A stretch of 64,000 nt of DNA from Actinomycetota bacterium (lineage in GTDB: Bacteria; Actinomycetota; Thermoleophilia; Gaiellales; F1-60-MAGs149). Both the position numbers and the translations under genes were made by a program. The notes beneath the pieces are model-generated. The model ran no database searches and was not told where the DNA came from. It saw only the letters and a list, made by a program, of their open reading frames with translations. The stretch spans positions 372,001-436,000 of the forward strand of contig JAPLCF010000030.1 in NCBI GenBank assembly GCA_026392355.1. The letters run 5' to 3'. Position 1 is the stretch's first letter; each line of letters opens with the position of its first letter. Positions 2,862 through 47,725 of the stretch are shown one piece after another.

Positions 2862-3799
2862 CGAGCATCCTCCCGAATCCGCCAGCCCGCGCCCGCCCGC
2901 TCGACGAGCACAATCGTCTCAACGCGTCGCTTCCCCCCGGCGTCCCGCACGAGATGCATGACGGCATGGACAGCGGATGCGACTTGCTCACGCACGGCAC
3001 TGTGCGGAACATCCACGCCGCCCATCAGCGCCATCGTCTCGAGCCTGCGCAGCGCGTCCTCGGGACCATTGGCATGCACGGTCGCGAGCGATCCATCGTG
3101 TCCCGTATTCATCGCGAGTAACAAGTCGAGCGCTTCGCCGCCACGAACCTCACCAACGACCAGGCGATCGGGGCGCATACGTAATGCGTTGCGGACGAGG
3201 AGACGAAGGTCGATCGCTCCGCGCCCTTCCACATTTGGCGGGCGTGACTCCAGCCGTGCCACATGCCGCGCCTGCACCGCCAACTCGGCCGCATCCTCCA
3301 CCGAGACGATGCGCTCCTGCGGAGGTATCAGTCCCGTCAACGCACTGAGCAGCGTCGTCTTCCCGGTTCCCGTTCCGCCGCTGATGACGATGTTGCGACG
3401 ATCAGCGATCAGTGCCTCAATGATCGGAATGAGCCCGCGGGCAATCGCCCCGTTGGCTACGAGATCGCTAAACGTCAGTGGTGCATTCCCGAAGCGACGG
3501 ATCGTGATCAGTGGCCCGTCGACAGCGAGCGGTGGGAGCACGACATTGACCCGCGATCCGTCGGGCAGGCGGGCATCCACGAGCGGCGATGCATCGTCGA
3601 TGCGTCGGCCGCAGGCCGCCACCAAGCGCACGGCCGTCTGGCGGAGCTCCACCGAGTCACGGAAGCGCACATCGACCGCCCGCAATCTCCCGTTAACCTC
3701 GATCCAGACATCAGACGGACCGTTGACGACAACCTCCCCCACCGACCCGTCCATCAACAATCCCGCCAGTGGCCCGGCAATGGCGGCAACGCTTGTCAC
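2849..3799 (-). CDS. tadA: TadA/CpaF-type secretion ATPase
   Basis: 316 residues. Hexameric ATPase of the VirB11/GspE superfamily that drives Tad pilus assembly or secretion. Visible motifs: Walker A GGTGTGKT at 141-148, the acidic VSVEDAAEL stretch near 165-173, the Walker B region DRLVVGEVRGGEALDLL starting at 211, and the His box GHDGSLATVHAN at 233-244. The N-terminal part (1-100) carries the usual small strand-rich domain (GEVVVNGPSDVWIE). CpaF proteins are commonly 400-450 residues; this one lacks their long N-terminal extension. Overlaps tadZ by 4 nt. Confidence 0.93.
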   Translation of the reverse strand: MTSVAAIAGPLAGLLMDGSVGEVVVNGPSDVWIEVNGRLRAVDVRFRDSVELRQTAVRLVAACGRRIDDASPLVDARLPDGSRVNVVLPPLAVDGPLITIRRFGNAPLTFSDLVANGAIARGLIPIIEALIADRRNIVISGGTGTGKTTLLSALTGLIPPQERIVSVEDAAELAVQARHVARLESRPPNVEGRGAIDLRLLVRNALRMRPDRLVVGEVRGGEALDLLLAMNTGHDGSLATVHANGPEDALRRLETMALMGGVDVPHSAVREQVASAVHAVMHLVRDAGGKRRVETIVLVERAGAGWRIREDARCAD

Positions 3800-16861: not shown

Positions 16862-18340
16862 ATGCGTCCGTCTAGCCACCACTTCATCGTTATCTCGGTT
16901 ATCGCCGTCGCCGCCGTCGCGATGACCACCGTTGCCGCCTTCCTGCCCGCAACATCTGGAGCTCGGCCAGCCCTCACCGACATCGTGACGGAGCGGCCGC
17001 CGACGACCGTCCCGAGTCGCCCCACAGGGGCAGTCGCACAAGCCGCGCAGGCCGTGCAGGCCGCGGCCTCGAACACTCGCCCGATCACGAGCGGTGGAGT
17101 CACGCAACCCATTACGTGCGCCTGGCCGGTCGAGAGCACGCCATCGAAGGCAAACGTTGCGTATCCCGACTCGAACGCCACCTACTGGACGACGCCGTTC
17201 ATCGCCCAAGAGGGCATGACCATCACGCTCAAAGGCACGTTTCCAACCGCTCGTTTCTTCTCGTTCGTCGTCTACAACAGCGCCGGCCAGGACTTCACGA
17301 CCAACGGCATTCCCTCGTCGCTAACCGACTACCAGATGGTGCCGGATCCGGGCACGCAAAACCCGTGGGTCACCGCGAGCGCAGCTTCTGGCACGTATAG
17401 CGTTACGCTGATGAACGGCGTGACGTCGGGCATGACGAACGCGATTCCGCTGACGCCGTCGACGCCCTCCACGCCCCTCCTCAAGGGCATACCCGCCATC
17501 ACGGGCTTCGTGACCATGCGTGTCTATCTGCCGGCCAACAACAATGCCAATGCGATCCCGCTGCCGACGATGACCATCTCCACCGACAGCGGTGCCAAGG
17601 TCACGACGCTCAAGCAGTGCGCCAGCGCGCAGAAGACACCGTCAATGAAGACCCAGATCATGAAGGCGGCGATCGCCAAGATGCTCACCCAGACTCTGGC
17701 GGGTAAGGCCGGCACGCCGCCAACCACGTCGGGCACGTGCAGTGCCTCGCTGGTGTTCTGCAAGGCGGGCGGCTCCACCACGCCCTTCCCGAACAGCGAT
17801 TCGGGCTATGTCGCCGCGCGCTACCAGCCGGCGGCTGGGTACGTTACCGTCGTCAAAGCGAAGATGCCGAAAAGCGCCACTGCCTACGGCAACGGACCGG
17901 GCGTCTGGCCCGCATCAGGCATCAACCTGCGGTACTGGTCGTTCTGTAACTACGTCTACGCCAAGCCGTACCCGGTCGTCACCGTGGGCCCCATCATGGG
18001 CTGCACGGCTGATCAGGACATGCCGCTGGTCAATGGCACCGCCACCGTCGTGATCTCGTCTCTCAAGGACCGGCCGGTGTCGACCCTTGGCCCGAAGGCC
18101 AAGCTCGGCTGGCTGCCAACCTCGCCCACCAACACGACCGCTGAGGAGGTGATCGCGATCCGTAACATGCTGGCCGCGCCGACCTTCACCCAGTCCGTCA
18201 TGAACGCTGAGAACTCGAACCAGGCGTCTGCCCAGAGCACAATGGGGCCGTACTACCCCAGCGGCGTCCAGTGCACCACGGCGACGTTCGCGAAGGGTGG
18301 CGCGGCGGGGTGCTTCAAGAACCCCGCATCGCCAAGCTGA
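16862..18340 (+). CDS. Secreted protein of unknown function
   Basis: 492 residues. An N-terminal hydrophobic segment (about 9-28) ending near PATSGARP looks like a signal peptide, followed by a Thr/Pro/Ala-rich linker. The body is Thr/Ser/Asn-rich and beta-like, with WTTPFIAQEGMTITLKGTFP and ARFFSFVVYNSAGQDF early and YWSFCNYVYAKPYPVVTVGP late, which may be two related halves. Eight or so cysteines are present, suggesting disulfides. The family is not recognised. The dyad at 16791-16827 may control it. Confidence 0.75.
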   Translation: MRPSSHHFIVISVIAVAAVAMTTVAAFLPATSGARPALTDIVTERPPTTVPSRPTGAVAQAAQAVQAAASNTRPITSGGVTQPITCAWPVESTPSKANVAYPDSNATYWTTPFIAQEGMTITLKGTFPTARFFSFVVYNSAGQDFTTNGIPSSLTDYQMVPDPGTQNPWVTASAASGTYSVTLMNGVTSGMTNAIPLTPSTPSTPLLKGIPAITGFVTMRVYLPANNNANAIPLPTMTISTDSGAKVTTLKQCASAQKTPSMKTQIMKAAIAKMLTQTLAGKAGTPPTTSGTCSASLVFCKAGGSTTPFPNSDSGYVAARYQPAAGYVTVVKAKMPKSATAYGNGPGVWPASGINLRYWSFCNYVYAKPYPVVTVGPIMGCTADQDMPLVNGTATVVISSLKDRPVSTLGPKAKLGWLPTSPTNTTAEEVIAIRNMLAAPTFTQSVMNAENSNQASAQSTMGPYYPSGVQCTTATFAKGGAAGCFKNPASPS

Positions 18341-19488: not shown

Positions 19489-20073
19489 GTGGACACGGCT
19501 GACGGCAGCGGAATCCGCCGAGGGCGCCTCGAGGGCATCTCGGACGGGATCATGGCGGTGGCGATCACGCTGCTCGCACTTGGCATTGATGCGCCGACGC
19601 CGGAGCCCGGCGAGTCGCTGCTGCAGGCGTTCGACGCGCAGACGCTCGGCGCGATCGGGTTGTTCGCGCTCAGCTTCTTCCTGATTGCGCGATTCTGGTT
19701 GGTGCACCATCGCCTCTTCGCCGGGTTGCCCTCGACGCTCGCGCCACCGTTCGTGATTCTCAACTTCGCGTTCCTCGCCGCCATCTGCCTGGTGCCCTTC
19801 GCCACGACGACGTACTCGCGCAACCCGGACGACATGACGGCGCTCGCGATCTACACGGCAGTCGTCGCCGGCGCCACAATCCTGCTGTCGGTGATGTTCC
19901 GAGAGAGCGCGACGAGCACCTCCCGCCGCGGCGTGATCGTCCCGCTGATCCTGCTCAGCGCTATACCCGTCGGCCTGCTCGTCGGTCCCCGCTACGCGCC
20001 AATGGTGTGGATCCTGTTGCTGCTCGCCGACGGGATTCGTGCCCAGCGCCTCAGCCGCCGCCGGTCTGCCTGA
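19489..20073 (+). CDS. TMEM175-like (DUF1211) cation channel protein
   Basis: 194 residues from GTG 19489 (GTG 19483 also possible). GRLEGISDGIMAVAITLLAL matches the first-helix signature of TMEM175 proteins (R-x-x-x-[FI]-S-D-x-[IV]-x-A-[IV]-x-[IL]-T-L-L). Six hydrophobic segments, one repeat, as in bacterial TMEM175 potassium channels that assemble as tetramers. The usual Phe of the RxxxFSD motif is Ile here. Starts about 80 nt after tRNA-Glu and may share its transcript. Confidence 0.82.
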   Translation: MDTADGSGIRRGRLEGISDGIMAVAITLLALGIDAPTPEPGESLLQAFDAQTLGAIGLFALSFFLIARFWLVHHRLFAGLPSTLAPPFVILNFAFLAAICLVPFATTTYSRNPDDMTALAIYTAVVAGATILLSVMFRESATSTSRRGVIVPLILLSAIPVGLLVGPRYAPMVWILLLLADGIRAQRLSRRRSA

Positions 20074-20159
20074 CCTGCTGCGGCCGCTCCCGTTTTACTC
20101 GCTCGACCCGGTCGCCACGCATCACCGAACGTTCACCCAATTTCGTACGAAGTGAGTGC

Positions 20160-20174
20160 TACCGTTGCGCCATG
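20160..20174 (+). promoter_or_regulatory. Leaderless promoter: TACCGT box, 6-nt spacer, ATG
   Basis: TACCGT at 20160-20165, spacer TGCGCC, ATG 20172. Confidence 0.55.
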
Positions 20175-22178
20175 CGCGCCACGTTGGCTTTGGTCAGCGT
20201 CGTCCTCACGACGCTCGTCGCCGCCCCGACCGCGGTGGCGACGCCATCGCTCCTGACCGACACGATCGGGCCCTTCGGCCAGCCGTATGGCATCGCCGTC
20301 TCGCCGGACGGCTCGTCCGTGCGCGTGCTTGAAGTCATCGACGACGCCGTCCAGTACGTGGACCCGGTGACGAACACGATCAGCGGCGCCGAGGTGGGCG
20401 TGGGCAACGACCCGTACTTCGGCGCCTTCGACGCCTCGGGTTCCACGTTCTTCGCCGCCAACTGGAACAGCGGCACCGTGAGCGTAATCGTCGGTCGAGC
20501 GGTCGTGAGCACGATCGCCGTCGGCAATAAGCCGTACCTGATCAAGCCGGTGGCCGCCGGTGCGAAGCTCGTGACCCTGAACCAGGGCGCCGCCGGCGCG
20601 CCCGGCGTGAGCCTGATCGATGCGGCGACGCGCACCGTCGACCGCACCGTCAGCACGGGTACCGCGGGCAATCAAGTCACATCGCTCGCCGTTCACCCGG
20701 CCGGGACCACGGCCTGGGTAACATCGATTGCGGACCTATATCTGAAGAAGGTCACGCTCGCCACGGGTGCCGTCACGACCATCACTCCGTCTCTCGTCGG
20801 CGGCCAGGTCCCACGCGCAGTCTTCGCGTCACCAAGCGGTGCCACGCTGGCGCTGATCACTAGGGGTACCAACGAACTGATTCTCCTCGACGGCTCGACA
20901 GGCACCATTGCCCACCGCATCTCTCTCGGCACCCAGCGCGCCTGGGCGGTCGCCTTTTCCCCCGACGGCGCGACGGCGTACGCACTCGTCGACGACACCG
21001 GCGGGATCAATCCACAGGTACGGGCGTACACGGTCGCCACGGGAGCACTAAGCCGGTCGTTCCCGCTCTCGACGGACGACACGCTGCCCGGGGACGGCGA
21101 TCCTGCGGAGTGGTTCACAACGACCCCCGACGGCGTGAATCTCGTCGTCGCCACAATCGATGCCTCGGGGGACACAGCGGTCAACCTCATCGATACGCGC
21201 TCTGGTCGGCGTGACGCGGTCGCGCTACCCAACTTCATCGGTCGTTTCGGCTACCTCGCGCTCAACCCCGCCGGTACGCGGATCTACGTGTCCAACGGTC
21301 GGAGCACAGGCTTGCTCGCCGCGCTTGCCGCTGTCAGCACGCCAGGTGCACCCACCGCCGTGGCCGCCCGCGCCGGCAACGGTTCCGCGCTCGTGTCGTG
21401 GACCGCGCCGAGCGATGATGGCGGCGCGATCGTTTCCCGGTACACCGCTACGGCTGCGCCCGGTGGGCAGACCTGCGCCTGGACCACCGGTGACCTCGCA
21501 TGCACCCTGACCGGACTGACCAACGGCACCGGCTACAACGTCAGCGTCACGGCCACCACCGTCGCTGGCACGTCGGTAGCCTCCTCCGCCGTCGCCGTCA
21601 CACCAGCTGACGCCCCCGGTCGCCCAACGGCGGTGACTGCGGTCGCCGGGCTGCTCCGTGCGGTCGTCTCCTGGAAGGCCCCGACGGACACGGGTGGCGG
21701 TATCACGGGCTACACCGCCACCGCCAGCCCCGGCGGCGGGACGTGCACGACTACCGGCGCGCTCACCTGCACGATCACTGGCCTGCTGAATACGACGGCG
21801 TACACGATCACCGTCGTGGCGCGCTCGGCTGGCGGCACCGGTACCGCCTCCAGTGCCAGCACCGCCGTGCGCCCGTACAAGCAGCTCGCCATGCGGAAGC
21901 CCAGCGCCTCGGCCACCCGCATCCGCTCGAGCGTCCCAGCCACCGGTCCCTCCACCATCACCCAGCTCACCACGAGCGCAAGCGGCGCGACCATCTGCCG
22001 CGCTACCGCCGCGCCCAAGACGAAGGGCACGAGTACCCTCACCTGCACCGTCAACAAGGCCACCCGCACCGCCTTGAAGAAGAAGGCCGCGACCGTCACC
22101 GTCCTCACGACCCTGCGCACCAAACAGGGCGCGAGCTTCGGCGCCACACACCGTGTGACGCTCCCCAAGTCGGGCTGA
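20172..22178 (+). CDS. Secreted beta-propeller protein with fibronectin type III repeats
   Basis: 668 residues from ATG 20172. Signal peptide 1-23 (VVLTTLVAAPTAVA). Residues about 30-395 form YVTN-like propeller blades (GQPYGIAVSPDGSSVRVLEV, RAWAVAFSPDGATAYALVDD). Two FN3 domains follow (about 396-480 and 483-570), each with TAVAARAGNGSALVSWTAP or TAVTAVAGLLRAVVSWKAP and a GLTNGTGYNVSVTA-type end. The last 90 residues are Thr/Lys-rich beta. Such architecture suggests extracellular binding. No anchor is seen and the ligand is unknown. Confidence 0.85.
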   Translation: MRATLALVSVVLTTLVAAPTAVATPSLLTDTIGPFGQPYGIAVSPDGSSVRVLEVIDDAVQYVDPVTNTISGAEVGVGNDPYFGAFDASGSTFFAANWNSGTVSVIVGRAVVSTIAVGNKPYLIKPVAAGAKLVTLNQGAAGAPGVSLIDAATRTVDRTVSTGTAGNQVTSLAVHPAGTTAWVTSIADLYLKKVTLATGAVTTITPSLVGGQVPRAVFASPSGATLALITRGTNELILLDGSTGTIAHRISLGTQRAWAVAFSPDGATAYALVDDTGGINPQVRAYTVATGALSRSFPLSTDDTLPGDGDPAEWFTTTPDGVNLVVATIDASGDTAVNLIDTRSGRRDAVALPNFIGRFGYLALNPAGTRIYVSNGRSTGLLAALAAVSTPGAPTAVAARAGNGSALVSWTAPSDDGGAIVSRYTATAAPGGQTCAWTTGDLACTLTGLTNGTGYNVSVTATTVAGTSVASSAVAVTPADAPGRPTAVTAVAGLLRAVVSWKAPTDTGGGITGYTATASPGGGTCTTTGALTCTITGLLNTTAYTITVVARSAGGTGTASSASTAVRPYKQLAMRKPSASATRIRSSVPATGPSTITQLTTSASGATICRATAAPKTKGTSTLTCTVNKATRTALKKKAATVTVLTTLRTKQGASFGATHRVTLPKSG

Positions 22179-22233: not shown

Positions 22234-23517
22234 GTGAGCGATCCTCGCCCTGACGCGCTCGCCGACGGCAGCAGCGCCCGCGAGTTGCTGCGCCACCCGA
22301 TGGTCCGGCGGCTGCTGATCTCCGAGCTCGCCGCCACGATGTCGTTCGGCGTGCTGACGGCGGCGCTCGGCTGGCAGGCCTACGCGCGCACCGGCGATCC
22401 GCTCGTACTCGGCCTGATCGGGCTCTTCGAGTTCATCCCCGCGCTGATCCTCGCGATTCCCGCCGGACAGCTCGCCGACCGCGTCGACCGGCGTTACGTG
22501 ACGGCCGCCGGCAACCTCGGCGCCTTTGTCTTTACCGGCCTGCTGCTGCTCGACGCCGCCGTCTGGGGCCTCGAGGCGTGGCCGCTCTACGTCCTTGCAG
22601 CCGGCCTCGGCGGCTCCCGCGCTTTCGCGGGCGCGGCCTTCAACCCGATGCTCGCCGCCGCGGTCACCCCGCGTGCGCTGCCTCGCACGATGGCGCTGTC
22701 GTCCTCGACTTGGCAGGGCGCACTGATCGTCGGCCCGCTGCTCGGTGGCGCCTTCCAAGCGCTCGGCGACGTGCCGCCGTACGCCGCCGCCATGGTGTTG
22801 GAGGCCACCGCCGGCATCCTCGTCCTGACGGTCACCCGGCGGATCGGCACGGACCACAAGGTCGTCGATGCGCCACCCGCGACGCTCCGCGACGCGACCG
22901 CTGGACTGCGCTTCATCATCGCCACACCAGCCCTGCTCGCCGCTATCTCGCTCGACCTCGTGGCCGTGCTGTTCGGCGGTGCGACGGCGCTCCTGCCTGT
23001 CGTGGCCCAAGACATTCTTCATGTCGGCGAGGTTGGTTACGGCGTGCTGCGCGCCGCCCCAGGCGTCGGCGCGGTGCTCGTCGGCATTCTGCTGTCCGCC
23101 CGACCGATCCAGCGCAAGGTCGGACCAGTGTTGCTCAGCTGCGTGGCGCTCTTCGGCCTGTTCACGATCATCTTCGGCCTGTCGACAAACTTCCTCCTCA
23201 GCATCGTGGCGCTGTCCTTTCTTGCCGCGAGCGACATGGTCAGCGTGTTCATCCGCGCGACGCTCGGGCCACTGCTCACTCCCGCAGCACTGCGCGGACG
23301 CGTCGGCGCCGCTGAGCGCGTCTTCATCGGCGCTTCGAACGAACTCGGAGCCTTCGAATCGGGCACGCTGGCCCGCTTTATCGGCACGGTGCCTGCCATT
23401 CTCGTAGGCGGCGTCGCATCGGTCGCCATCGCTGGCCTCTGGTTCGTGCTGTTTCCCTCCCTGCGACGGATCGACCGCTTCGAGGACATCAAGCCGACTG
23501 ACGCCAGCACGCTCTAA
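22234..23517 (+). CDS. MFS transporter, EntS-like exporter group
   Basis: 427 residues from GTG. Twelve hydrophobic helices are apparent; the loop 2-3 signature appears as PAGQLADRVDRRYV. ELAATMSFGVLTAALGWQAY near the N-terminus and the general pattern match the MFS_3 (enterobactin/macrolide exporter) group. Substrate unknown. GAGACT lies 7 nt before the start (weak -10). The following ATPase gene has its own promoter. Confidence 0.88.
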   Translation: MSDPRPDALADGSSARELLRHPMVRRLLISELAATMSFGVLTAALGWQAYARTGDPLVLGLIGLFEFIPALILAIPAGQLADRVDRRYVTAAGNLGAFVFTGLLLLDAAVWGLEAWPLYVLAAGLGGSRAFAGAAFNPMLAAAVTPRALPRTMALSSSTWQGALIVGPLLGGAFQALGDVPPYAAAMVLEATAGILVLTVTRRIGTDHKVVDAPPATLRDATAGLRFIIATPALLAAISLDLVAVLFGGATALLPVVAQDILHVGEVGYGVLRAAPGVGAVLVGILLSARPIQRKVGPVLLSCVALFGLFTIIFGLSTNFLLSIVALSFLAASDMVSVFIRATLGPLLTPAALRGRVGAAERVFIGASNELGAFESGTLARFIGTVPAILVGGVASVAIAGLWFVLFPSLRRIDRFEDIKPTDASTL

Positions 23518-35641: not shown

Positions 35642-37783
35642 CTACCTACGGAGAAGCCGCAGGCCGTTCATCGTCACGATGATGGTTGAACCCTCGTGCC
35701 CGAGCACGCCGAGCGGGAGCGGCACCTTGTCGAACAACGTCAGGATCGCGAGCGTGACGATCACGCTCCCGGCAAAGACAAGGTTCTGCCGCACGACACG
35801 ACGCATGCGTCGCGCCAGCTCGATCGCGTACGGCACATCAAGCAGCCGATCGGCCATCAGCACGACATCGGCAGTCTCCAGCGCCTGGTCGGTACCGCGA
35901 CCACCCATCGCGATACCCACGTCGGCCACCGCCAACGCCGGGGCATCGTTGACGCCGTCGCCGACCATGCCGATCTTGCCCTTGCCGGCGAGGAGGCGGA
36001 TACGTTCGACCTTGGCGTCGGGCAGGAGATCGCCAAGCGGCTCGTCGATACCGATGTCCGCAGCCACGCGATTGGCGACCGCCTGACGATCACCCGACAG
36101 CATCGCGGTCTCAATGCCGAGCTCCTTCAGACGACGAATCACCTCGGCCGATTCGGGGCGCAGTTCGTCGGCCACGGCAACCATGCCGATCAGGGCTCCA
36201 TCGCGCACGACGCCAACGATCGTGGCCGTGTCGATGCGGGTACGGAAGTCCTCGAACGGCCCTGCCGTGGCGATGCCGTGTTCCTGCAGAAAGTCGATAT
36301 TGCCAGCCAGCACGCGCTGCCCATCCACCTCGGCGGTGACGCCGCGTCCGACACTCGCCGCGAATGCCTCGCACTCCGGTACCTCGAGCTGACGCTCCGC
36401 TGCCTCGTTGACGATCGCCAAAGCCAGGTGGTGCTCGCTGCGACTCTCGACGGCAGCCGCGATGCGCAACACCTCATCCTCGGTTGTCTCACCGATCGTG
36501 CCAATCTCGACCACCGACGGTCGTCCCTTGGTGAGCGTGCCCGTTTTGTCGAAGGCGATCGTCGTGAGCCCCGCGATGCCCTCCATCGGTCCTGAGCCTT
36601 TGACGAGAATCCCATGACGGGCACCGGCGGCGATCGCAGACAGCATCGTTGCCGGCACCGAGATCACGAGCGCACACGGCGAGGCCACCACGAGCAGCGT
36701 CATCGCCTGCAGGAAGGCCGCAGAGAACGAGTGGCCCAGCAAGAGCAGCACTGCGAGTGCGCCACCGGAGATCCCCAGCACGCCGACGACATAAATCGGC
36801 TGGTAGCGATCGAGCATGCGCTGCGCTGGTGCCCGCTGCTCCCGCGCATCGCGCACGAGATCGATCACCTTGGCGAGCACTGTCTCATTGGCACGACGAT
36901 CGATCCGGATCTCGAGATACCCGTCGAGGTTTACCGACCCAGCCATCACCGCATCGCCTGCATCGCGCGGAACAGGCATGGACTCGCCGGTGATTGCGGA
37001 CTGATCCACCGCAGACCGCCCGTCCGCCACCGTCCCGTCCACGGGTATGCGATCACCCGGACGGACGATGGCGATCATCCCCACGTCGATGTCGTCGATC
37101 GGCAGTGTGCGCTCGGTGCCGTCCGCATCTTTGATCGTCACCGTCTCCGGACGCAGATCCATGAGTGCGCGAATCGAGGCTTCCGTCCGGCCGAGCGCGA
37201 ACTCCTCGAGCACGTTGCCGAGCGAGAACAGAAACAGCAGCACAGCGCCCTCCCAGAAGGCCTGGACGGAATACGCACCAGCGGCGGCGATCAGCATCAG
37301 CAGATCGACGTCCAACGAGCCGTGGCGCAGCGAGCCGATCGTGGTCCGCAGCGAGAACCACCCACCGGTGACGAACGCAAGCGCCCAGATCGGCAGCGCG
37401 GCGTCGAAGGAGAATCGCTCAACGATCACACCGATGATCAAGAGCAGCAGCGTGGCGACGACGAAACTAATGGCGATGCGGTTAGGCGCATGCGCAAGGA
37501 GCGAGATCGTGTGGCCGATCCGACGCGGAGCAAACGCGGCCGCAAGGCGCTTGCCCAGCGGCTCCTTCCCCGCCAGCCGCAGGTACGGACTCTCGAGTTG
37601 CAGGCGCAGGAGCTCGGGATTCAACTGCTCGGCGTCGTACGTGACCTCGACGAGTTGGGACGTCCGCCCGGGCGCGACGCCGATCACGTTCGGCACGAGC
37701 ATGGCGCGTCGTTCGATGTCGGAGATATCGACGGGACGCAATCCGCGGTCTGCGCTAAACACCATGATTGCTGGTGCGGCCAC
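35642..37783 (-). CDS. P1B-type metal ATPase, P1B-4-like
   Basis: 713 residues from GTG 37783. Metal-efflux P-type ATPase: TGES in ITGESMPVP, metal-binding SPC in VVASPCALVISVPA, phosphorylated Asp in AFDKTGTLTKG, hinge MVGDGVNDAPAL. The last helix contains GHEGSTIIVTMN; SPC plus HEG(G/S)T marks the P1B-4 group (Co, Fe(II), Zn; CtpD or PfeT type), not ZntA. Residues 10-70 look like an HMA domain that has lost its CxxC. Specificity is inferred from motifs only. Confidence 0.9.
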   Translation of the reverse strand: MAAPAIMVFSADRGLRPVDISDIERRAMLVPNVIGVAPGRTSQLVEVTYDAEQLNPELLRLQLESPYLRLAGKEPLGKRLAAAFAPRRIGHTISLLAHAPNRIAISFVVATLLLLIIGVIVERFSFDAALPIWALAFVTGGWFSLRTTIGSLRHGSLDVDLLMLIAAAGAYSVQAFWEGAVLLFLFSLGNVLEEFALGRTEASIRALMDLRPETVTIKDADGTERTLPIDDIDVGMIAIVRPGDRIPVDGTVADGRSAVDQSAITGESMPVPRDAGDAVMAGSVNLDGYLEIRIDRRANETVLAKVIDLVRDAREQRAPAQRMLDRYQPIYVVGVLGISGGALAVLLLLGHSFSAAFLQAMTLLVVASPCALVISVPATMLSAIAAGARHGILVKGSGPMEGIAGLTTIAFDKTGTLTKGRPSVVEIGTIGETTEDEVLRIAAAVESRSEHHLALAIVNEAAERQLEVPECEAFAASVGRGVTAEVDGQRVLAGNIDFLQEHGIATAGPFEDFRTRIDTATIVGVVRDGALIGMVAVADELRPESAEVIRRLKELGIETAMLSGDRQAVANRVAADIGIDEPLGDLLPDAKVERIRLLAGKGKIGMVGDGVNDAPALAVADVGIAMGGRGTDQALETADVVLMADRLLDVPYAIELARRMRRVVRQNLVFAGSVIVTLAILTLFDKVPLPLGVLGHEGSTIIVTMNGLRLLRR

Positions 37784-37933: not shown

Positions 37934-40900
37934 GTGAGCCGTCTTAGAGGTCTACAGCGCGCAGGAGTGGTTTTGCTCGCGTTGGCGACCCTTGCGCTGG
38001 TCGCTGCGGTCGGTACCGCCGGGGCACAAGACACCAGCACGACTGCCACGACGGTGGACCCAGGCGCGACAACTGCCGATGCCGGCGCACTGACGGTGGC
38101 TCCGAGCCCCGCAGCAACGACGGCGGCAACGACACCGGCCCTGACCTCCGAGCAGCCAGCGGCAGCGAGCCGCTCATCCTCCGCGCCCTACGCCTGGATC
38201 GAGGTCAAGCCCATCGGTCGCTCGAACTCCAATGGTCAGTCCAAGTCCAAGTACTTCACGATCGGGCAGGGCCGCACCGGTGTGATCCAGATGGCGATGA
38301 AGTACGACCACACGACGCTGTCCGGTGGCGCCCTCACGACCACCGTGACGTTGCCAACAGGCCTGACCTACATCGGCGTGCAGGCAGATGATCGCGATCA
38401 GGCGCGCATGAACGGTGCGTTCACGTGCACCACCGCCGGGCAGGTCGTGACGTGCACGATGAACAAGAGCCTCGACTCGACCGATGCCGCCGCAGTCCAA
38501 CCAAATCAGGTTGTCGAGCTGTTCCTGATCGTTAAGGCCGCCCCGAACCTTGTCCCGACGCCGCCGAAGAACGTCCCGAACCCGCCTGACCCGAGCGTCG
38601 CACAGCAGATCGCGCTGGGCGATATCACCGCAGCAGTCGCCGTCCCAACCGCCGCTGGCATTCTCAACGCCAGCAGCAAGGTGGGCGCGGAGGCAATCAC
38701 CGGCTTCGTCCAGCCGCTCATGCGCTCCACGATTGATGCCACGGATAGCGTCGGCAACGAGCGTGACTTCGTGATCCGCCTGCGCAACGTTGGCGGCCTG
38801 ACCGCACAGAGCGTCAACGGGAAGCCTTCCCTGATGGTGCAGGGCATCCTCCCCGAGGGCGTGCCGGACGTCGAGTTCACCGTCAAGGGCGATGGTTGGT
38901 CGTGCTCTGACGCCACGGGCGTCACGATCTGCACGTACCGCCGCCCGGTCGAGATCGGCGCGCAGGCCGAGTACCTGTACGTGCACTGGGTCCCCCTGTT
39001 GAAGGAATCCGACCGCCAGGCCAAGCGCATCAAGTGGCAGCTGAGCGGCAAGGTCAACTGGACGACCGTGGCCGATGAGGGAGCCACCCGCAAGCGGGAG
39101 ACGGGCACGACGTGCTTCACGCAGCGCTACAGCTGGAAGTTCCATGTCCTTCAACCCGCGACGATGACGGCGCGCGTCGAAGCCGCTAAGGGCATCGATG
39201 TCGCACAGGGCCGCACCACACACCTGCGCCTGCGCGTGCGCAACACCGGTGATGTCACTGCCACGCACCCCGGGGTGCGTATCGCGCTGCCCAAGGGTGT
39301 CACCCTCAAGAGCAAAACCGCGGGCTGGACCTGCACGCCCAACAGCCTCGGCGCCGAGTGTGTGAATTCGTCGATCTCGGTCGGCGTCGGCAAGTACACA
39401 ACCATCGAGGTTGATGCCAGTACGACAACTGCGACGCCCGCGGTGCACGGCAAGATCACGACGACGCCATACGCCGACAACAGCCGTAAGGACATCTCGC
39501 ACACCGTCCCGTTCGTGATCCAGGACATCGGCGATCCGCGAATCGCACCGACAATCCAATTCAAGAGTGACGGTCGTACGTGGAAAACCTGGAGCGACGG
39601 CGGCCGTACCAAGGTGCAGAAGGACGAGCCCTTCACGTACCGCGTTCAGCTCGTTAACCACGGTGGCGACGCGGTGCCCGCCGGCTCGACGGTGTCGATC
39701 TCACAGAAGATTGGCAGCGGCGTCAAGCTGATCAAGGCCGGCGTCAATGGCGAGGGCACCTGTGCCAGCGGTCACCTGGTCTCGTGCTCCCTGAGCCCGT
39801 CCTCGGCAGTTGCCCCGGGCCAGGTCGTTGGCACGCTCGACGTGACGATCGTCCCGACGCGCGAAACGAAGGATGCGCCCCTCGGGCCCGTCATCGCCAA
39901 GCTCTCCGGCGATCCGGGCGAGGATCGCGTGCCCGTGCGCCTGCGCGTCATCGCCAACGATCGGACGATTGCCATCTCCACCAATGTCCGACAGATCCCG
40001 GACGTCGGCGGCCGCGGCGAGCTCACCATGAGCGCGGCCAACAAGCAGAAGGACGCCGCCATTGACGAGCTCAAGGTGACCACTACCCTGCCGGCCGGCA
40101 TCTCGCTCGTCAGCGCTACAGGGTCGAATTGGGCGTGCTCGCAGAGCGGCCAGAACATCACGTGTGCCTTCGACTCCACGCTCAACAAGCGCACGCGCAC
40201 GCCGAAGGTCACGATGCTCATCGATGCACGCGGGAAGAAGCGTGTAGACGAAACGGTCTGGCGCGCCACCGCCCGCACGGTCTCGACGAAGCACCTTGCC
40301 GTTGGCGTCACCCGCCAGAAGCTGCCGGTTCGCGCGCCAATCACCGTCGTCGCCTCTGCCTCCCCCTCGACGCTCGCCGCCTCCAAGAGCCCGAAGGCAC
40401 TCCGTACCGTGGTCCTGAAGGGCAGCAAGAGCGCGAGCAATGGCGTCTCGCTCGACTACACGTGGGTGCAGCGCTGCACCACGGCTGATGACGTCAAGGC
40501 TTTCGACAAGTGCCCGACGAAGACGCCGACACCCGCAGTCCGCATCGAGCACCCCAATACCGCGACGGCTCGCGCGCTGATCCCGGGCGTCACCGAGCGC
40601 ACGACGTACGTCTTCGAACTGACGGTCACCGATCACAGCAGCACCCTCAGCGAGGTCGTCCGCACCACCGCCGTGCCGCCGCTGAAGCAGAAGCAGGGTG
40701 GCGAGCAGGGCTCCTCCGGCAAGACCAAGGACGCCACTTCCAAGAAGGCCGCGCAGACGGCCGCGCAGAAGGCCGCCGAAGCAGATCGCCGCAAGCGCGA
40801 TAACCAGCGTGCGAGCTCGGCGAAGGGCACGCAGAAGGCCAATGCCAGCAAGGGCAAGGCGGCGCTGAAGGGCGGCCCCAGCGTCACGATCGAAGGCGGC

Positions 40901-43900
40901 TCGCTCCAGAGCGCCGCAGTCAACGCCGAGATCACACTGCGCGCAGTCGTCAAGGGTGGCAGCGGCGAGCGTCGCTACGCCTGGAAGCAGTCTGCCGGCA
41001 GCGCTACAACCCTGTCCGACGCCACGGGCGAGAGCACGAGGGTGCGCCTGCCCGCAACCAAGGGCCTCGTCAGCTACACCGTCACCGTCACGGATAGCGC
41101 GGGCGCGCAAGGCTCGGCACGCGTCACGATCAACGTCGGCAGCGACGCGAAGGCCACCAATACCACGCAGGCGCTTGCCGCCAGCATCGTCGGCGGCCCG
41201 GCGCTCGGTGCCCTTCCCGGCACCAAGGTACTCCTGACTGCGCTGGCGCAAGGCGGAACCGGCAACGTCACCTACAGCTGGGCGCAGACCGCTGGCCCGT
41301 CCGTCTCGCTGTCGGCGAAGGTCGGCTCCACGGCCAGCTTCACGATGCCGAGCACGAGCGAGGGGATCACATTCCGCGTCACCGCGACGGACGCCAAGGG
41401 TACGCGCAGTACCGCCGATGCCACCGTCACCACGCAGGCCACACCGCCGAGTGTCTCTGTCGCCGGCGGTCCGCTCCTGACAGCTGCACCCAGCACGGAG
41501 ACCTCGCTCGAGGTGCGCGTCTCGGGCGGTAACGGGGAGCTGAAGTACAAATGGGCACAGGTCAGCGGCGCGAAGACGCCGATTACCGATGCCACCTCCC
41601 CCGTCGCGAAGATCAAGACCCCCGGCAAGAACGGTCTCCTCGTCTACACGGTCACCGCCACCGATAACACCGGCACGCAAGGCACCGGTACTGTCACCGT
41701 CTCGGTCGGCGCCGCCGCCGGCAAGGCGTACTGCTCGTTCCTCAAGCAGACCAGTAAGGCCTCGGGCAGTGGCACGCTTAACCTGCCGCTCGGCACCGGT
41801 ACGACGGCGACGTTCGGCACCATCACCCCGCCGAGCGCCACGCAACTGAGCGCCTGCTCCGGCGTGAGCACGAAGACAGCGCGGCAATCGACGACGCCGA
41901 GCGACGGTACGCCGTTCTCGGCCTCCAGCTTCACCGTTGGCGGTGTGTCCATCGCGAATGCCGCTGGCTACGTGATGCCCGCCGGTGTCGAGATCACGTC
42001 CGGCACCGTCACCACGCCGGCCAGCTGGCAGCTACCGGCGATTGCGATTGGCACCACCCCGCTCTCGCTCGTCTTCGCCGGCGGCAACAGCGCGAATGCG
42101 GAGCTCAGCGGATCGGTCACTGCCAAGGACTTCCCGTTCCTGACGCTGCCGAGCGGCTGGACCGGCAACACCACGCTGACCTTCACGCCTAGCGGCGCCA
42201 CGACCACCGGCACCGTGGACGCCACCGCCACGAATGGCAGCGGGCTGGTCAACGTGACGGGCTCACTGTCGACGACGGGCACCTTCACCGCGAGCGTCAC
42301 CGCCAACGACATCCTCACCATCGGCTCGACGTCGCTCGATATGAACGGCACCACGAGCAACGCCTCCGGCACCACCGTGTCGTCGATCACGGGCTCTACG
42401 ACGAGCTCCACCGCCCTCGCACCAGGCGTCGCGCTGTCCACACTGAAAGCCAACTGGACGACGGCGACCACTGGCCCGATCCTGACCGGCTCCGCCACGG
42501 TTGCGCTGAGCACTTCCGGCGCCACGCCAACGGCACTCAACGCGACGCTTTCGTACACCGATCCCTCCAACTGGGACGCGACGCTCACGGGTAGCGGCGG
42601 CCCCACGTGGCAACCGCTCAGCGGGCTCAGCATCTCCCCGTCGGACTTCTCGGGCAGCATTGCCCAGGACAACGGCGCCTGGCAGTGGGACGTCATCGCC
42701 AACGTCCCAACGTGGAAGGCTGCGTCGGTACTCACGCTGACCAACACCACCCTCGACCTGTCGAGCTCGTGCACGGTCGTTAAGGGCATCACGTGTCCGC
42801 AGTCGATGGTGTTCTTCAACGTCGACACGACGGCCGTGGTTGATCCGCCGCTCAGCGATCCGATCACGATCTCCGCCGATGCCGTGTTCGGGCTTGGTGG
42901 GACCCCCGCGTTCTCCATGACGGCAACGCTCAGCGGCTCCATCACTGCGATCCCCGGTCTCACCGCGACAATCACGAACGCGACGGTCAGCGTCAACGAC
43001 GTCGAGGGCACGTCGCTGAGCCCGACGATCACGATGCCGCAGGCCTCCCTCGCCCTCCCGAGCGCCTGGCGTCTGCCCAACATCTCGATCTCGAACAACC
43101 CGCTTTCGCTGGTCTTCATCTCCCCGTCGGGCGGCAGTGGCTCGTCGGGTGGTAGCGGCTCGTCCGGCGGCAGCGGCTCGTCGGGCAGCAGCGCCGTGAT
43201 CGCCCAGCTGATCGGCGACATCCCCGTCCCCCAGTTCCCGTTCCTGACGCTTCCCACCGGTTGGAGCGGTAACGCGAACCTTTCGTTCGGCCCCACCGCG
43301 AACGTCTACGGCTCCGCCACGGCGACCGCGAGCGACGGCAGCCATGGCGTGACGGTGAGCGGCACGCTCAACAACAACGGCACCTACAGCGCGTCGGTCT
43401 CAGCCGAGGACATCGTCACGGTTGGCAATGCCTCCGTTGATGTGTCGGGCAACGTCACCAATACGAGCGGCTCCGTCGTCTCGACGGTCACGGGCTCGAT
43501 CGGCTCGCCTGCCACGCTCGCGAGCGGTGTCCAGCTGACGACGCTCAGCGCGACGTGGACGTCGGCGACGACCGGGCCGATCTTCACCGGCAACGCCACC
43601 GTCGCAATCAGCAGCGGCAGCGAGACCCCGACGAACCTCAACGCGGCCTTCAGCTACACCGACACGACCAACTGGGACGTCACGTTGTCGGCGACCGGCG
43701 GCCCCACCTGGCAGCCGCTGCCGGGCCTCAACGTCACGCCGTCCGACTTCTCTGGCTCGATCGGCCAGACCAACGCGGCGTGGAATTGGGATATCAAGGC
43801 CGTCATCCCGTCCTGGACCGTCTCGTCGGTACTCACCCTGAACAACACCACGCTCGACATGGGTAGCTCCTGCACCCTGACGAATCTGGTCTGCCCGAAG

Positions 43901-46900
43901 GCTGATCTCTTCATGATGATCTCGACGACGGCGAATCTAAACCCGCCGGTCGGCGACTCGATCACCGCCGACGCCGACGCCGTATTCGGCATCGGTGGCG
44001 GTTCCGGCTTCTCGATGTACGCGGACGTTCCCAACGGCATCACTGTCGCGCCGGGCCTCTCGTTCTCGGCACCGTCGATCACCGTCGGCTACGACCTCCC
44101 GACGGGCAGCGTCACCCCGACGACTGGCGCACCCAGTTTCACGGGCGCAACGGAAAGCGGCTGGTCGATCAGCACGGCGGGCGGCCTGACCGTGCCGGGC
44201 CTCGGCGACTTCGCCGAGATCGCGACCAACATCACCTCCGCTGGCATCTCGATGGGCGGCTGGGACGCTGACGGCGTCTCGATCGCCTCCGGCAACGGCT
44301 CGCAGTCCGGTACAGCGTTCGGCTACTCGTCAATGCCCACCACGATGGCGTTCGATTTGCCGGGCTTCGGTGCCCAGTCGATCAAGATGACGCCCGGCCA
44401 GATCAGTGTGACCGGCGGCTTCTCGTCGCCGCAGTGGTTCTCGACGCTCACTGGCGCGTCGCTGCCGAGCGCCATCAGCACGATCCAGTTCGATCCGACC
44501 ACCGGCTTCTTCAACGCCATCGTCGACATCCCCGGCAGCTACTCGATCCCCTCCGGTGGCTCGAAGATCCAGATGCCGTCGCTCAACTTCGCGATCAGCA
44601 ACAACGCGCAGGGCTTGACTGTCACGGCCGGCGGCGTCGCGAACCTGAGTGCTGCGGCCGTCGGCGGCGGCACGTCCTCCCCGCCGCAGATGTCGGTCGA
44701 GGTGTCGTTCGACTTCACGACCGAACAGGTCTCCGCATCCTTTGGCATCGAGAACTGGAACAACGCCTTCGGCGATCAGGGCCTGACGATCAACGAGGCC
44801 GTGATCACCCTCGGCGCCGAGCTCGCCTCTGTGCCCTTCCCCACGCCCACCGTGGCGCTGTACGCAAGCCTCAATACCGGCTCGCTCCCACCGGCACTGG
44901 TAAGCACCTTCGGCGTCCCCGGCAACATCCCCGTCGCGATCGGCGCCGAGTTGTCCGAGGAGAACCCCTGCATCGAAGTGCAGGTCGGCTCTTCGACCGG
45001 CACGACGCCAATTCTCAGCGTCGGTGGCGGCTCGCTCCAGGCCACCTACTTCGAGTTCGTGCTCGCACCACTCGGCTGCACGCTTGGCAACGTCGGCGGC
45101 ACTCCAATTGTGATTCCGCCCGGCTTTTCGCTCGCGTTCGACGGCAAGCTGTTCGGCACCGAGGTCGATGTGCAGGCCTCGCTCAGCTTCGACCCGACGA
45201 TCTTCAACGCCAGCATCACCGTCGGCGCGTTCTCGATCCCGGGTACCGGTAGCGCGATGCAGTTCCAAGAGACGACCGTCACGGTGTCGCTGAACGAGCA
45301 GACGAATGTCGACTCCGTCACGTTTGCCGGCGGGTTCTCGATGTTCGGCACCACCATCGACGTCAGTGGCGACCTGATCTTCAACGGCACCACCGGCCAG
45401 ACGACAGCAGGCCTGAAGGTGTCACAACCGCAGGCGCTCAATGTCTCCGGGTTCTCGCTCAGCAACCTCTCGATCGCCCTCAACGTGACGTACGGCGGGT
45501 CGACGAACGACCTCTCGATCGCTGCCTCTGGTGACATGAACATCATGGGCAACACGGTCAACGTGGAGGCCTTCGACGCCACCATCGATAACGGCGTCGT
45601 TGAGTACGTCAACGTCCAAATCCAAGAGAACCTCAACTTCGGGCCTGCCGCCACTGCCAGCGGCATGTTCGACATGTCGTACACCCAATCGACCGGCGCC
45701 TTCGACCTGAATGCCTCGGTGGTCCTGACGACGGCCGCGGGCTTCAGTATCGGCACAACCGCGAATCCCGCAACGCTCGAGATCTCGCCGCAGTGCGTCG
45801 CCTTCTCTGGCTCCCTGGGCTACGCACCGTTCTTCACCGCCACCCTCGAGGGCACGCTCGTCTACCAGGCCGGCTGCGCCGAGACGGTCACGAATAGCGC
45901 TGGTCAGCAGGTGCAGGGCAACCCGGGCGACTTCAGCTTCTCTGCGACCAACGTGGCGATCGGCATCGACGGCTTCGGCCTAACGGGCGACGTGGGACTC
46001 GGCCATGTCGGCACCGATGACTACGCCAACCTCAACGCCACCATCGCGCTGTCGCCGCAGAGCACCAACAACGAGATCACGGTCGCCGGCGACTTCAACT
46101 CGAACGGCAACTTCACCTTCAACGGCAGCGGCAACCTCGACGTGGCGGGCTTCGTGCTCAACATGCAGGTGGCGGTCTCGAGCCAGAACGGCAACGAGAA
46201 CATCTCGGGCGCAGCGAGCTTCGATGTGGGCGGCACGACCCTCGCCTTCGCCGGTGACTTCTCGATGCAGAACGGCCAGCCCTCCACCTCGCTGACCGCA
46301 TCGGCCAACCTTGTCTTTGACGGCTTCAACCTCGGCAACACGACCGTCAACCTCAACCAGACGCCGTCGAGCTTCGGCATGAATGCCCAGATCGCGCTCA
46401 ACGCCGACCTGGCCACGCTCAATGGTGAGCTGACCTTCATCGAGAACGGCGGTGCTCCGCTGTTCTACTTGGCCGCGGCAGGCAACCTCAACATTCCGAA
46501 CCTCGCCGATGCCTCCATGTCCGGTGTCTTCACGAACTGCACCGACCCGACGTGTGCGCAGGCCACGACGGCGACGCTGACGATGTCTGGCTCGCTCGAC
46601 GTCTACGGCCTCACCTACAACTTCCCGACCATCGTGATCGGCGCCGACGGCTTCTTCAGCATCACGGCCGACTCCAGCGGTAGCTCCTGCACCGGCACGA
46701 CGGAGATCTGGCCCGCCAACTGGCAGGCCTGCTTCTCGTACACGGAGACGCTGCTGATCTCCGACGCCGCGCCGTACTTCTCGGTTTCCGCGAGCGCCGA
46801 TGCCGACGTTCAGGTCCAGTGGTACAACGCCTTCGCCAACTCCTACAGCTGCGCCTGCGTGCACTGGCCGTGGTGGCTCGGCGGCAAGACGACCTGCCTC

Positions 46901-47023
46901 ACGTGTTACAGCGGCGGCTGGGGCGGCTGGGGCACGTTCATCAACATCAGCGGCGGATTCAGCTTCAACGCCGATCCCTTCGAGCTCAGCATCGAAGCCG
47001 AGGGCGTCGACTTCTCGATCTAA
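37934..47023 (+). CDS. Giant secreted multidomain protein (DUF11/PKD-like/beta-repeat)
   Basis: 3029 residues from GTG, preceded by GAGGG. Signal peptide about 1-31. Thr/Ala linker to about 85. Residues about 90-815 hold five DUF11-like Ig-type domains, most ending in a W-x-C...C pair (GDGWSCSDATGVTICTY, TAGWTCTPNSLGAECVN). A PKD-like domain (about 818-914), a Lys/Ala-rich basic linker (916-980), then three PKD-like domains (981-1260). Residues 1367-1689 and 1714-2054 are two copies of a beta-rich module, the second interrupted by a (GGSGSS)3 linker. About 2060-2960 is further repetitive beta structure. Cysteines at 2973, 2975, 2988 and 2991 (CxC, CxxC) lie near the end. No sortase signal or C-terminal helix. 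Probably a surface adhesin or structural protein; function unknown. Confidence 0.88.
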   Translation: MSRLRGLQRAGVVLLALATLALVAAVGTAGAQDTSTTATTVDPGATTADAGALTVAPSPAATTAATTPALTSEQPAAASRSSSAPYAWIEVKPIGRSNSNGQSKSKYFTIGQGRTGVIQMAMKYDHTTLSGGALTTTVTLPTGLTYIGVQADDRDQARMNGAFTCTTAGQVVTCTMNKSLDSTDAAAVQPNQVVELFLIVKAAPNLVPTPPKNVPNPPDPSVAQQIALGDITAAVAVPTAAGILNASSKVGAEAITGFVQPLMRSTIDATDSVGNERDFVIRLRNVGGLTAQSVNGKPSLMVQGILPEGVPDVEFTVKGDGWSCSDATGVTICTYRRPVEIGAQAEYLYVHWVPLLKESDRQAKRIKWQLSGKVNWTTVADEGATRKRETGTTCFTQRYSWKFHVLQPATMTARVEAAKGIDVAQGRTTHLRLRVRNTGDVTATHPGVRIALPKGVTLKSKTAGWTCTPNSLGAECVNSSISVGVGKYTTIEVDASTTTATPAVHGKITTTPYADNSRKDISHTVPFVIQDIGDPRIAPTIQFKSDGRTWKTWSDGGRTKVQKDEPFTYRVQLVNHGGDAVPAGSTVSISQKIGSGVKLIKAGVNGEGTCASGHLVSCSLSPSSAVAPGQVVGTLDVTIVPTRETKDAPLGPVIAKLSGDPGEDRVPVRLRVIANDRTIAISTNVRQIPDVGGRGELTMSAANKQKDAAIDELKVTTTLPAGISLVSATGSNWACSQSGQNITCAFDSTLNKRTRTPKVTMLIDARGKKRVDETVWRATARTVSTKHLAVGVTRQKLPVRAPITVVASASPSTLAASKSPKALRTVVLKGSKSASNGVSLDYTWVQRCTTADDVKAFDKCPTKTPTPAVRIEHPNTATARALIPGVTERTTYVFELTVTDHSSTLSEVVRTTAVPPLKQKQGGEQGSSGKTKDATSKKAAQTAAQKAAEADRRKRDNQRASSAKGTQKANASKGKAALKGGPSVTIEGGSLQSAAVNAEITLRAVVKGGSGERRYAWKQSAGSATTLSDATGESTRVRLPATKGLVSYTVTVTDSAGAQGSARVTINVGSDAKATNTTQALAASIVGGPALGALPGTKVLLTALAQGGTGNVTYSWAQTAGPSVSLSAKVGSTASFTMPSTSEGITFRVTATDAKGTRSTADATVTTQATPPSVSVAGGPLLTAAPSTETSLEVRVSGGNGELKYKWAQVSGAKTPITDATSPVAKIKTPGKNGLLVYTVTATDNTGTQGTGTVTVSVGAAAGKAYCSFLKQTSKASGSGTLNLPLGTGTTATFGTITPPSATQLSACSGVSTKTARQSTTPSDGTPFSASSFTVGGVSIANAAGYVMPAGVEITSGTVTTPASWQLPAIAIGTTPLSLVFAGGNSANAELSGSVTAKDFPFLTLPSGWTGNTTLTFTPSGATTTGTVDATATNGSGLVNVTGSLSTTGTFTASVTANDILTIGSTSLDMNGTTSNASGTTVSSITGSTTSSTALAPGVALSTLKANWTTATTGPILTGSATVALSTSGATPTALNATLSYTDPSNWDATLTGSGGPTWQPLSGLSISPSDFSGSIAQDNGAWQWDVIANVPTWKAASVLTLTNTTLDLSSSCTVVKGITCPQSMVFFNVDTTAVVDPPLSDPITISADAVFGLGGTPAFSMTATLSGSITAIPGLTATITNATVSVNDVEGTSLSPTITMPQASLALPSAWRLPNISISNNPLSLVFISPSGGSGSSGGSGSSGGSGSSGSSAVIAQLIGDIPVPQFPFLTLPTGWSGNANLSFGPTANVYGSATATASDGSHGVTVSGTLNNNGTYSASVSAEDIVTVGNASVDVSGNVTNTSGSVVSTVTGSIGSPATLASGVQLTTLSATWTSATTGPIFTGNATVAISSGSETPTNLNAAFSYTDTTNWDVTLSATGGPTWQPLPGLNVTPSDFSGSIGQTNAAWNWDIKAVIPSWTVSSVLTLNNTTLDMGSSCTLTNLVCPKADLFMMISTTANLNPPVGDSITADADAVFGIGGGSGFSMYADVPNGITVAPGLSFSAPSITVGYDLPTGSVTPTTGAPSFTGATESGWSISTAGGLTVPGLGDFAEIATNITSAGISMGGWDADGVSIASGNGSQSGTAFGYSSMPTTMAFDLPGFGAQSIKMTPGQISVTGGFSSPQWFSTLTGASLPSAISTIQFDPTTGFFNAIVDIPGSYSIPSGGSKIQMPSLNFAISNNAQGLTVTAGGVANLSAAAVGGGTSSPPQMSVEVSFDFTTEQVSASFGIENWNNAFGDQGLTINEAVITLGAELASVPFPTPTVALYASLNTGSLPPALVSTFGVPGNIPVAIGAELSEENPCIEVQVGSSTGTTPILSVGGGSLQATYFEFVLAPLGCTLGNVGGTPIVIPPGFSLAFDGKLFGTEVDVQASLSFDPTIFNASITVGAFSIPGTGSAMQFQETTVTVSLNEQTNVDSVTFAGGFSMFGTTIDVSGDLIFNGTTGQTTAGLKVSQPQALNVSGFSLSNLSIALNVTYGGSTNDLSIAASGDMNIMGNTVNVEAFDATIDNGVVEYVNVQIQENLNFGPAATASGMFDMSYTQSTGAFDLNASVVLTTAAGFSIGTTANPATLEISPQCVAFSGSLGYAPFFTATLEGTLVYQAGCAETVTNSAGQQVQGNPGDFSFSATNVAIGIDGFGLTGDVGLGHVGTDDYANLNATIALSPQSTNNEITVAGDFNSNGNFTFNGSGNLDVAGFVLNMQVAVSSQNGNENISGAASFDVGGTTLAFAGDFSMQNGQPSTSLTASANLVFDGFNLGNTTVNLNQTPSSFGMNAQIALNADLATLNGELTFIENGGAPLFYLAAAGNLNIPNLADASMSGVFTNCTDPTCAQATTATLTMSGSLDVYGLTYNFPTIVIGADGFFSITADSSGSSCTGTTEIWPANWQACFSYTETLLISDAAPYFSVSASADADVQVQWYNAFANSYSCACVHWPWWLGGKTTCLTCYSGGWGGWGTFINISGGFSFNADPFELSIEAEGVDFSI
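42032..43000 (+). repeat. First copy of internal beta module in the giant gene
   Basis: Encodes residues about 1367-1689. Shares FPFLTLPSGWTGN, WTTATTGPILTG, GGPTWQPLSGL, SPSDFSGSI and DAVFGLGG with the second copy; the DNA is diverged. Confidence 0.75.
43073..44095 (+). repeat. Second copy of internal beta module in the giant gene
   Basis: Encodes residues about 1714-2054, with FPFLTLPTGWSGN, WTSATTGPIFTG, GGPTWQPLPGL, TPSDFSGSI and DAVFGIGG matching the first copy. It differs by a Gly/Ser insertion near its start. Confidence 0.75.
43130..43192 (+). repeat. 18-bp tandem repeat encoding (GGSGSS)3-GSS
   Basis: Three and a half in-frame 18-bp units (43130, 43148, 43166, partial 43184) with third-base differences. 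Encodes a flexible linker at residues 1733-1753. Confidence 0.9.
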
Positions 47024-47088: not shown

Positions 47089-47586
47089 TCAGGCGGGGTC
47101 GATCTCGCGGAGCGTGCCGTTCTCCACGTGGTACACGAAGCCGCGAATCTTGTCGCGGTGCGGCACGAACGGGCTGTTCTTGATGCGCACGATCGACTGG
47201 CGAACGTCGGCGTCGACATCGGGGAAGGCCTCGGCGGCCCACTCGGGGCGCGCACCGGTCTCCTGCTCAATGCCCTGGCGGAAGTCGTCGTCCTTGAACG
47301 TGAGCATGCCGCAGTCCGTGTGATGGATCAGCACGATCTCGCTCGTCCCGAGCAGGCGCTGGGAGATGGCGAGCGACCGGATCGCGTCGGCGGTGGCGAC
47401 ACCACCGGCGTTGCGGATCACATGCACGTCACCCTCTTCGAGCCCGAGCACGCGCGCCGGGTCGAGACGGGCGTCCATGCAGGCGAGTACGGCCGTCTTG
47501 CGGGCCGGCGGCATCGGCAGATCACCCTTGGTGAACTGCTCGGCGTAGGCCTTGTTGGCCTCAAGAAACTCATCAGTGACGCTCAT
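47089..47586 (-). CDS. Beta-class carbonic anhydrase
   Basis: 165 residues from ATG 47586, preceded by AAAGGAC. Interconverts CO2 and bicarbonate. Zinc ligands are Cys36 (in LACMDARLD with the Asp38-Arg40 dyad), His89 and Cys92 (HHTDCGM). The small single-domain form with DVHVIRNAGGVATADAIRSL resembles the mycobacterial Rv1284 type. Cytoplasmic. Confidence 0.94.
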   Translation of the reverse strand: MSVTDEFLEANKAYAEQFTKGDLPMPPARKTAVLACMDARLDPARVLGLEEGDVHVIRNAGGVATADAIRSLAISQRLLGTSEIVLIHHTDCGMLTFKDDDFRQGIEQETGARPEWAAEAFPDVDADVRQSIVRIKNSPFVPHRDKIRGFVYHVENGTLREIDPA

Positions 47587-47725
47587 TCGAGCCGTCCTTT
47601 CATTCGCTGGGCTAATGACTATCATCAGCATGCCATATGAATTTAGCCATGCAAAGTCACGCGTCGCGACCTAAGTGAAATCCGTCATGCCCGTAGCGCC
47701 CAGCCCAGCACGCACGCGGAGGGCG

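Follow-up and report, generated by a model that had tools for sequence, protein, structure and literature searches.

A predicted secreted protein of 3029 residues belongs to an undescribed family of giant proteins with an unusual architecture

The giant protein encoded in the window (the whole stretch of 64,000 nucleotides analysed here) is not an orphan, nor is it one of the known adhesins. Sequence comparison places it in a conserved family of giant proteins defined by its second half (residues 1266–3029), a family with an unusual predicted architecture of which we found no description in the literature. The architecture is well supported and suggests a possible function: a secreted, surface-held stalk carrying a long hydrophobic trough that may bind lipids or hydrophobic surfaces. 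We favour this reading as a whole tentatively, at somewhat under an even chance, and give a protein-only role (filament, coat or adhesin) almost as much weight as a trough binding lipids or other hydrophobic material. A single unexplained giant thereby leads to a previously undescribed protein family, delimited by sequence and specific in its predicted architecture. Should the trough prove real, unusually long lipid-binding beta-grooves would be exposed on the surface of bacteria that lack an outer membrane; such grooves have until now been associated with eukaryotes and double-membrane bacteria. Should it not, the second half would still be a new filament domain, and small-genome relatives invest about 0.4% of their genome in such a protein.

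The gene (Table 1) is genuine. Its frame is uninterrupted from GTG to stop, the GC content at its three codon positions (0.55/0.56/0.87) is in line with that of adjacent genes, and GAGGGA upstream of the start is a plausible ribosome-binding site. The earlier note on this DNA had read the frame as a secreted protein with a signal peptide; the leader, RLRGLQR-AGVVLLALATLALVAAV-GTAGAQ, is indeed of the classical Sec type when inspected by eye.

Table 1. Features of the giant-protein gene and its product (positions in the window, residues of the protein)
Feature	Position	Strand	Residues	Basis
Giant-protein gene, 3029 aa, GTG start	37934..47023	+		Single open frame, codon GC, RBS
Sec-type signal peptide, cut predicted near AGA-Q/D	37934..38029	+	~1-32	Read by eye
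Five DUF11-like Ig domains, one Cys pair each	38200..40400	+	~90-820	Cys positions, PF01345 in aligned relatives
PKD domain 1	40419..40690	+	~829-919	PF22352, motif
Basic Ala/Lys/Arg/Gln-rich linker between PKD 1 and PKD 2	40691..40876	+	~920-981	Sequence
PKD domains 2-4	40877..41722	+	~982-1263	PF22352, partial NF038112, motifs
Beta module copy 1	42017..43027	+	~1362-1698	Self-comparison
Beta module copy 2, with inserted Ser/Gly linker (~1722-1745)	43058..44122	+	~1709-2063	Self-comparison
Predicted amphipathic antiparallel beta region	43427..47020	+	1832-3029	Longer AlphaFold piece
Best-modelled beta-sheet core, 34 strands of at least 8 aa	45119..46828	+	2396-2965	Shorter AlphaFold piece
Module present once here and at 136-aa intervals in L070	45845..46069	+	2638-2712	E 4.2e-9
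Cys/Trp-rich C-terminal tail, WGGWGTF...ADPFELSIEAEGVDFSI	46829..47020	+	~2966-3029	Family end conserved in genus

The first half reads as a stalk, and the domains that the earlier note had assigned to it hold on Pfam matches, motifs and Cys pairs. The four PKD-like domains correspond to four stretches matching the K319L-like PKD family PF22352 (Pfam, E 9.9e-29) and to PKD motifs at residues 842, 1015, 1114 and 1205. For the five DUF11-like domains the support is partly indirect: Pfam is silent on the copy in the window but scores DUF11 (PF01345) in aligned relatives with E-values down to 3.9e-11, and each of the five units contains a Cys pair (165/174, 324/333, 467/476, 610/618 and 735/744). 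A linker of the same basic kind as that between the first two PKD domains is present in relatives. The net charge of the protein is +47 in the first half and -91 in the second. This split (N +44 to +72, C -37 to -95) recurs in 17 of 17 measured members of f1 and f5, the two closest families, the N-terminal charges of some relatives counting residues upstream of the true start; it is lost in f2 and remoter kin.

The second half, which the earlier note could assign to no family, remained without a match above chance level when 23 family members were compared with Pfam and NCBIfam, and it matched no described adhesin family there; its core was unmatched in PHROGs, and second-half profiles found nothing among PDB sequences. 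PDB sequence matches of the whole protein were rejected as spurious, the Ser/Gly-rich residues ~1700-1768 being aligned to engineered fusion chains. A natural (SGG/SGS)n linker that looks like engineered fusion linkers lies at 43097-43170, in the second copy of the beta module. The two copies of this module, also recognised earlier, share 49% identity over 358 columns, and the long beta repeats described with them are supported by predicted strands and profile self-matches. The module is mostly single-copy among relatives. Its duplication is common to the window protein and that of locus L016, and the first copies of both cluster together (96/93), so that the duplication appears to predate the split of the two species. 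The C-terminal tail persists at contig ends or junctions in some relatives.

The host is probably an actinomycetote, perhaps of a Thermoleophilia-like class; its assembly (2.40 Mb, 93.7% complete) contains no paralogue of either half, which answers the earlier proposal to look for related giants in the genome. Relatives of the second half are present in 8 of the 13 species of the genus, including the window species (two of the eight having end fragments only), in two sister-family genomes (about 28% identity) and, elsewhere in the class, in 12 sampled genomes that belong to a single genus without covering all of it. Weaker relatives occur both within the class, in genomes of 4-6 Mb, and in further families of the phylum. 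With 26 of 399 genomes matched in the class and 7 of 396 in the phylum, the distribution is patchy. Plasmid and viral sequences yielded no relatives, and an apparent Limnohabitans relative (L002) was discarded as a chance match within a gene for a solute-binding-type protein. In the close families every complete copy is a giant (open frames of 2270-2810 aa, with a signal peptide), and three families of the class keep the arrangement in which the signal peptide is followed by DUF11, PKD and the beta half. Two diverged copies are present in some genomes (G011; G159, G207 and G235). A second, strongly diverged giant from the same genus (L020, G007:C284, 2-5518, minus strand; open at both ends and no shorter than 1839 aa) has only part of the core in common (E 1e-8).

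Two giants with signal peptides, the remote relative at L070 (3128-10300, minus strand, 2390 aa) and that at L072 (5934-11456, plus strand, 1841+ aa), consist mostly of tandem repeats and have no convincing Pfam match. Where the L070 array is regular, the spacing of its YYG motif is exactly 136 aa eight times in succession; its unit matches the window protein once and also almost all other family members. The duplicated module of the window protein and these 136-aa arrays together suggest that protein length evolves by module addition. Other relatives differ in build: the protein at L089 (G730:C19, 2-4777, plus strand) has many ~65-aa beta repeats of the NW(S/T) type followed by a long helical-looking C-terminal stretch, and that of the remote relative at L071 (3-9332, plus strand), in which Pfam scores no DUF11, has an N-terminus resembling a right-handed parallel beta-helix and an InlB B-repeat-like PF18998 match.

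The protein could be an ordinary fibrillar surface protein, whose stalk and long beta filament would bind cells, glycans or particles or self-assemble into a coat or sheath, with the hydrophobic face buried by packing and no lipid involved. DUF11 and PKD are stalk domains typical of surface proteins, and fibrillar adhesins combine stalk domains with adhesive domains that are mostly N-terminal (PMC9210967). Here a secretion signal, read by eye at the N-terminus, and repeated stalk domains (four PKD; DUF11 in relatives) are both found, and the varying number of modules suits a filament of tuned length. MORN repeats, a weak Foldseek match of the second half, were once assumed to bind lipids and proved to be protein-protein, dimerisation modules rather than membrane binders, a warning for any lipid reading (PMC7725318). 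However, Pfam and NCBIfam detect no known adhesive domain in the protein or its family, the uncharacterised part is C-terminal, and the C-terminal half, at 27-59% identity over about 1200 aa across families, is more constant than one expects of a fast-evolving adhesin. We regard this explanation as slightly less likely than the trough. The adhesin, sheath or stalk component suggested in the earlier note keeps its support in the stalk-like first half and finds none in a described adhesin domain.

The structure prediction in segments proposed earlier was carried out with AlphaFold on family alignments of two pieces. Residues 1832-3029 (1198 aa, 23 rows) gave a pLDDT of 72 and a pTM of 0.34, and residues 2396-2965 (24 rows) an open amphipathic sheet with a pLDDT of 83.1, a pTM of 0.54 and every residue at 50 or above. 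Both models consist of consecutive strands joined mostly by turns of 2-4 residues; the shorter contains only strands (mean length 11.9 aa) and short turns. The second half is thus predicted to form one continuous antiparallel amphipathic beta-sheet with strands of about 12 aa. In the family profile, the hydropathy gap between strand faces is 2.80 for residues 2396-2965 (1.07 ± 0.14 when shuffled) and 2.58 for the longer piece (1.06 ± 0.12), i.e., 12-13 standard deviations over shuffles. Glycine accounts for 24% of mid-strand positions and 2-6% of strand ends on the hydrophobic face, and for 3% of the mid-polar face, where large hydrophobic residues make up 4%. Such a glycine midline is what a sheet folding at its middle would need, and the sheet probably curls along it into a trough, hydrophobic inside and acidic outside, neither model including a ligand or being known to show a closed trough.

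Among the PDB matches listed by Foldseek, the best TM was that of the open ApoB100 belt (TMq 0.35, rmsd 16.8); a TM of 0.35 lies under the usual line for a shared fold. LptD, ushers and TonB-dependent receptors reached TMq 0.12-0.21 despite good E-values (rmsd 35-46 for LptD and ushers, 39-45 for LptD alone), and VDAC 0.13-0.15. These matches point to a long up-and-down amphipathic sheet, more open than closed, and imply no common ancestry. Viral-structure matches (BFVD) to tail-fibre and MORN-type beta repeats were set aside, with TM at most 0.10 of the query.

The open sheet might itself be an artefact, produced by a shallow alignment of low-complexity sequence rich in Ser, Thr, Gly and Asn; the protein would then actually fold into beta-sandwich or solenoid domains that serve as further stalk. 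The 23-24 alignment rows, the two pTM values and the repetitive composition would fit this, but the alternation is present in the family profile, confidence rose for the shorter piece and the hairpins are regular, with 2-residue turns; we consider such an artefact unlikely.

The genes next to the giant lie on the opposite strand and encode a P-type ATPase (35642-37783, minus) and a carbonic-anhydrase-like protein (47089-47631, minus), and the giants of relatives adjoin varying housekeeping genes. No dedicated secretion or anchoring partner was seen among the neighbours of the giant or its relatives, and no lipid-handling neighbour or partner gene is conserved at these loci. Conserved neighbours considered as operon partners (two-component kinase/regulator, ApbE, M3 peptidase, Ppx/GppA, Pro_CA and P-type ATPase) were rejected as housekeeping or general genes. 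The protein has no Pfam anchor domain and no SLH or other wall-binding Pfam domain that would mark it as an S-layer protein. It has no transmembrane end, and neither sortase nor Omp85 was found in the 93.7% complete genome, nor WhiB, sought as a taxonomic marker; the earlier remark that neither an anchor nor a secretion partner could be recognised thus stands. Since sortase and Omp85 were not found, the giant should be neither sortase-anchored nor an outer-membrane barrel, and an outer-membrane protein or autotransporter is also disfavoured by the low barrel matches (TMq 0.16-0.21 for LptD and ushers, 0.13-0.15 for VDAC).

Elsewhere in the window, a gene for a secreted YncE/fn3-like protein (20007-22178) is followed by an MFS gene (22234-23517). 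The giant locus occupies this site in two relatives (G005 and G008), which indicates at least two genomic sites for the giant in the genus. The whole giant adjoins the MFS gene in G008 (L019); in G005 (L022:4180-4350), its last ~50 residues are left between the fn3 and MFS genes, as a result of deletion or assembly collapse. The window also encodes, after a tRNA-Gln gene, a secreted-looking Thr/Ala-rich protein of 492 aa (16862-18340, plus strand) without a Pfam match at E 0.01.

In the stalk-and-trough reading that we favour, the signal peptide would send the protein out via Sec, the positively charged, disulfide-stapled Ig/PKD stalk would most likely hold non-covalently to the anionic wall, and the trough would bind extracellular hydrophobic material, e.g., lipids, hydrophobic surfaces or other copies of the protein. 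A more specific version, an ApoB-like belt secreted by a monoderm, extensible in tandem and sharing no sequence relationship with LLTP or RBG proteins, which would gather and shield extracellular lipids as a lipid-particle scaffold or trough, seems improbable. Least probable is a secreted bridge-like conduit of the AsmA/VPS13 RBG or LptA style, connecting the membrane to an outer layer or to the environment for the passage of lipids: a long one-face-hydrophobic sheet of modular length, as in U-shaped lipid bridges (PMC7613979), is found here in the profile and predicted strands, but the AsmA, TamB and chorein families are unmatched in Pfam, the sole NCBIfam AsmA match is marginal (1 of 23 members, E 0.3), RBG and Lpt-bridge proteins are absent among the 50 PDB matches listed (LptD at rmsd 39-45), and the genome, in which no Omp85 was found, gives no sign of an outer membrane for the conduit to reach.

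Compared with known systems, the giant resembles ApoB100 and the large lipid transfer proteins in its predicted very long, open amphipathic antiparallel sheet with one hydrophobic face. Unlike them, it is bacterial, carries a DUF11/PKD stalk, has no helical or vitellogenin-N domain and shows neither a sequence match nor a fold-level structural match, so that the likeness is one of analogy only. With the bridge-like lipid proteins (VPS13, AsmA/TamB and LptA) it shares the modular extension of a one-face-hydrophobic beta-sheet, whereas the RBG unit consists of five strands plus a loop, the strands predicted here being joined mostly by turns of 2-4 residues, and the giant, from a host in which no outer-membrane marker was found, matches these proteins neither in Pfam nor among the listed structures. 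MORN arrays likewise stack beta-hairpins with glycines, but the strands of the giant are longer (~12 aa) and the Pfam MORN family is unmatched. Fibrillar adhesins with DUF11/PKD stalks are similarly giant and secreted, and differ in their known adhesive or anchor domains and in the position of the uncharacterised half. Giant1-5 of Apilactobacillus kunkeei (PMC12863079), likened here by description and not by sequence, have an N-terminal beta-solenoid but, like the present protein, are secreted, thousands of residues long and encoded by a large share of a small genome.
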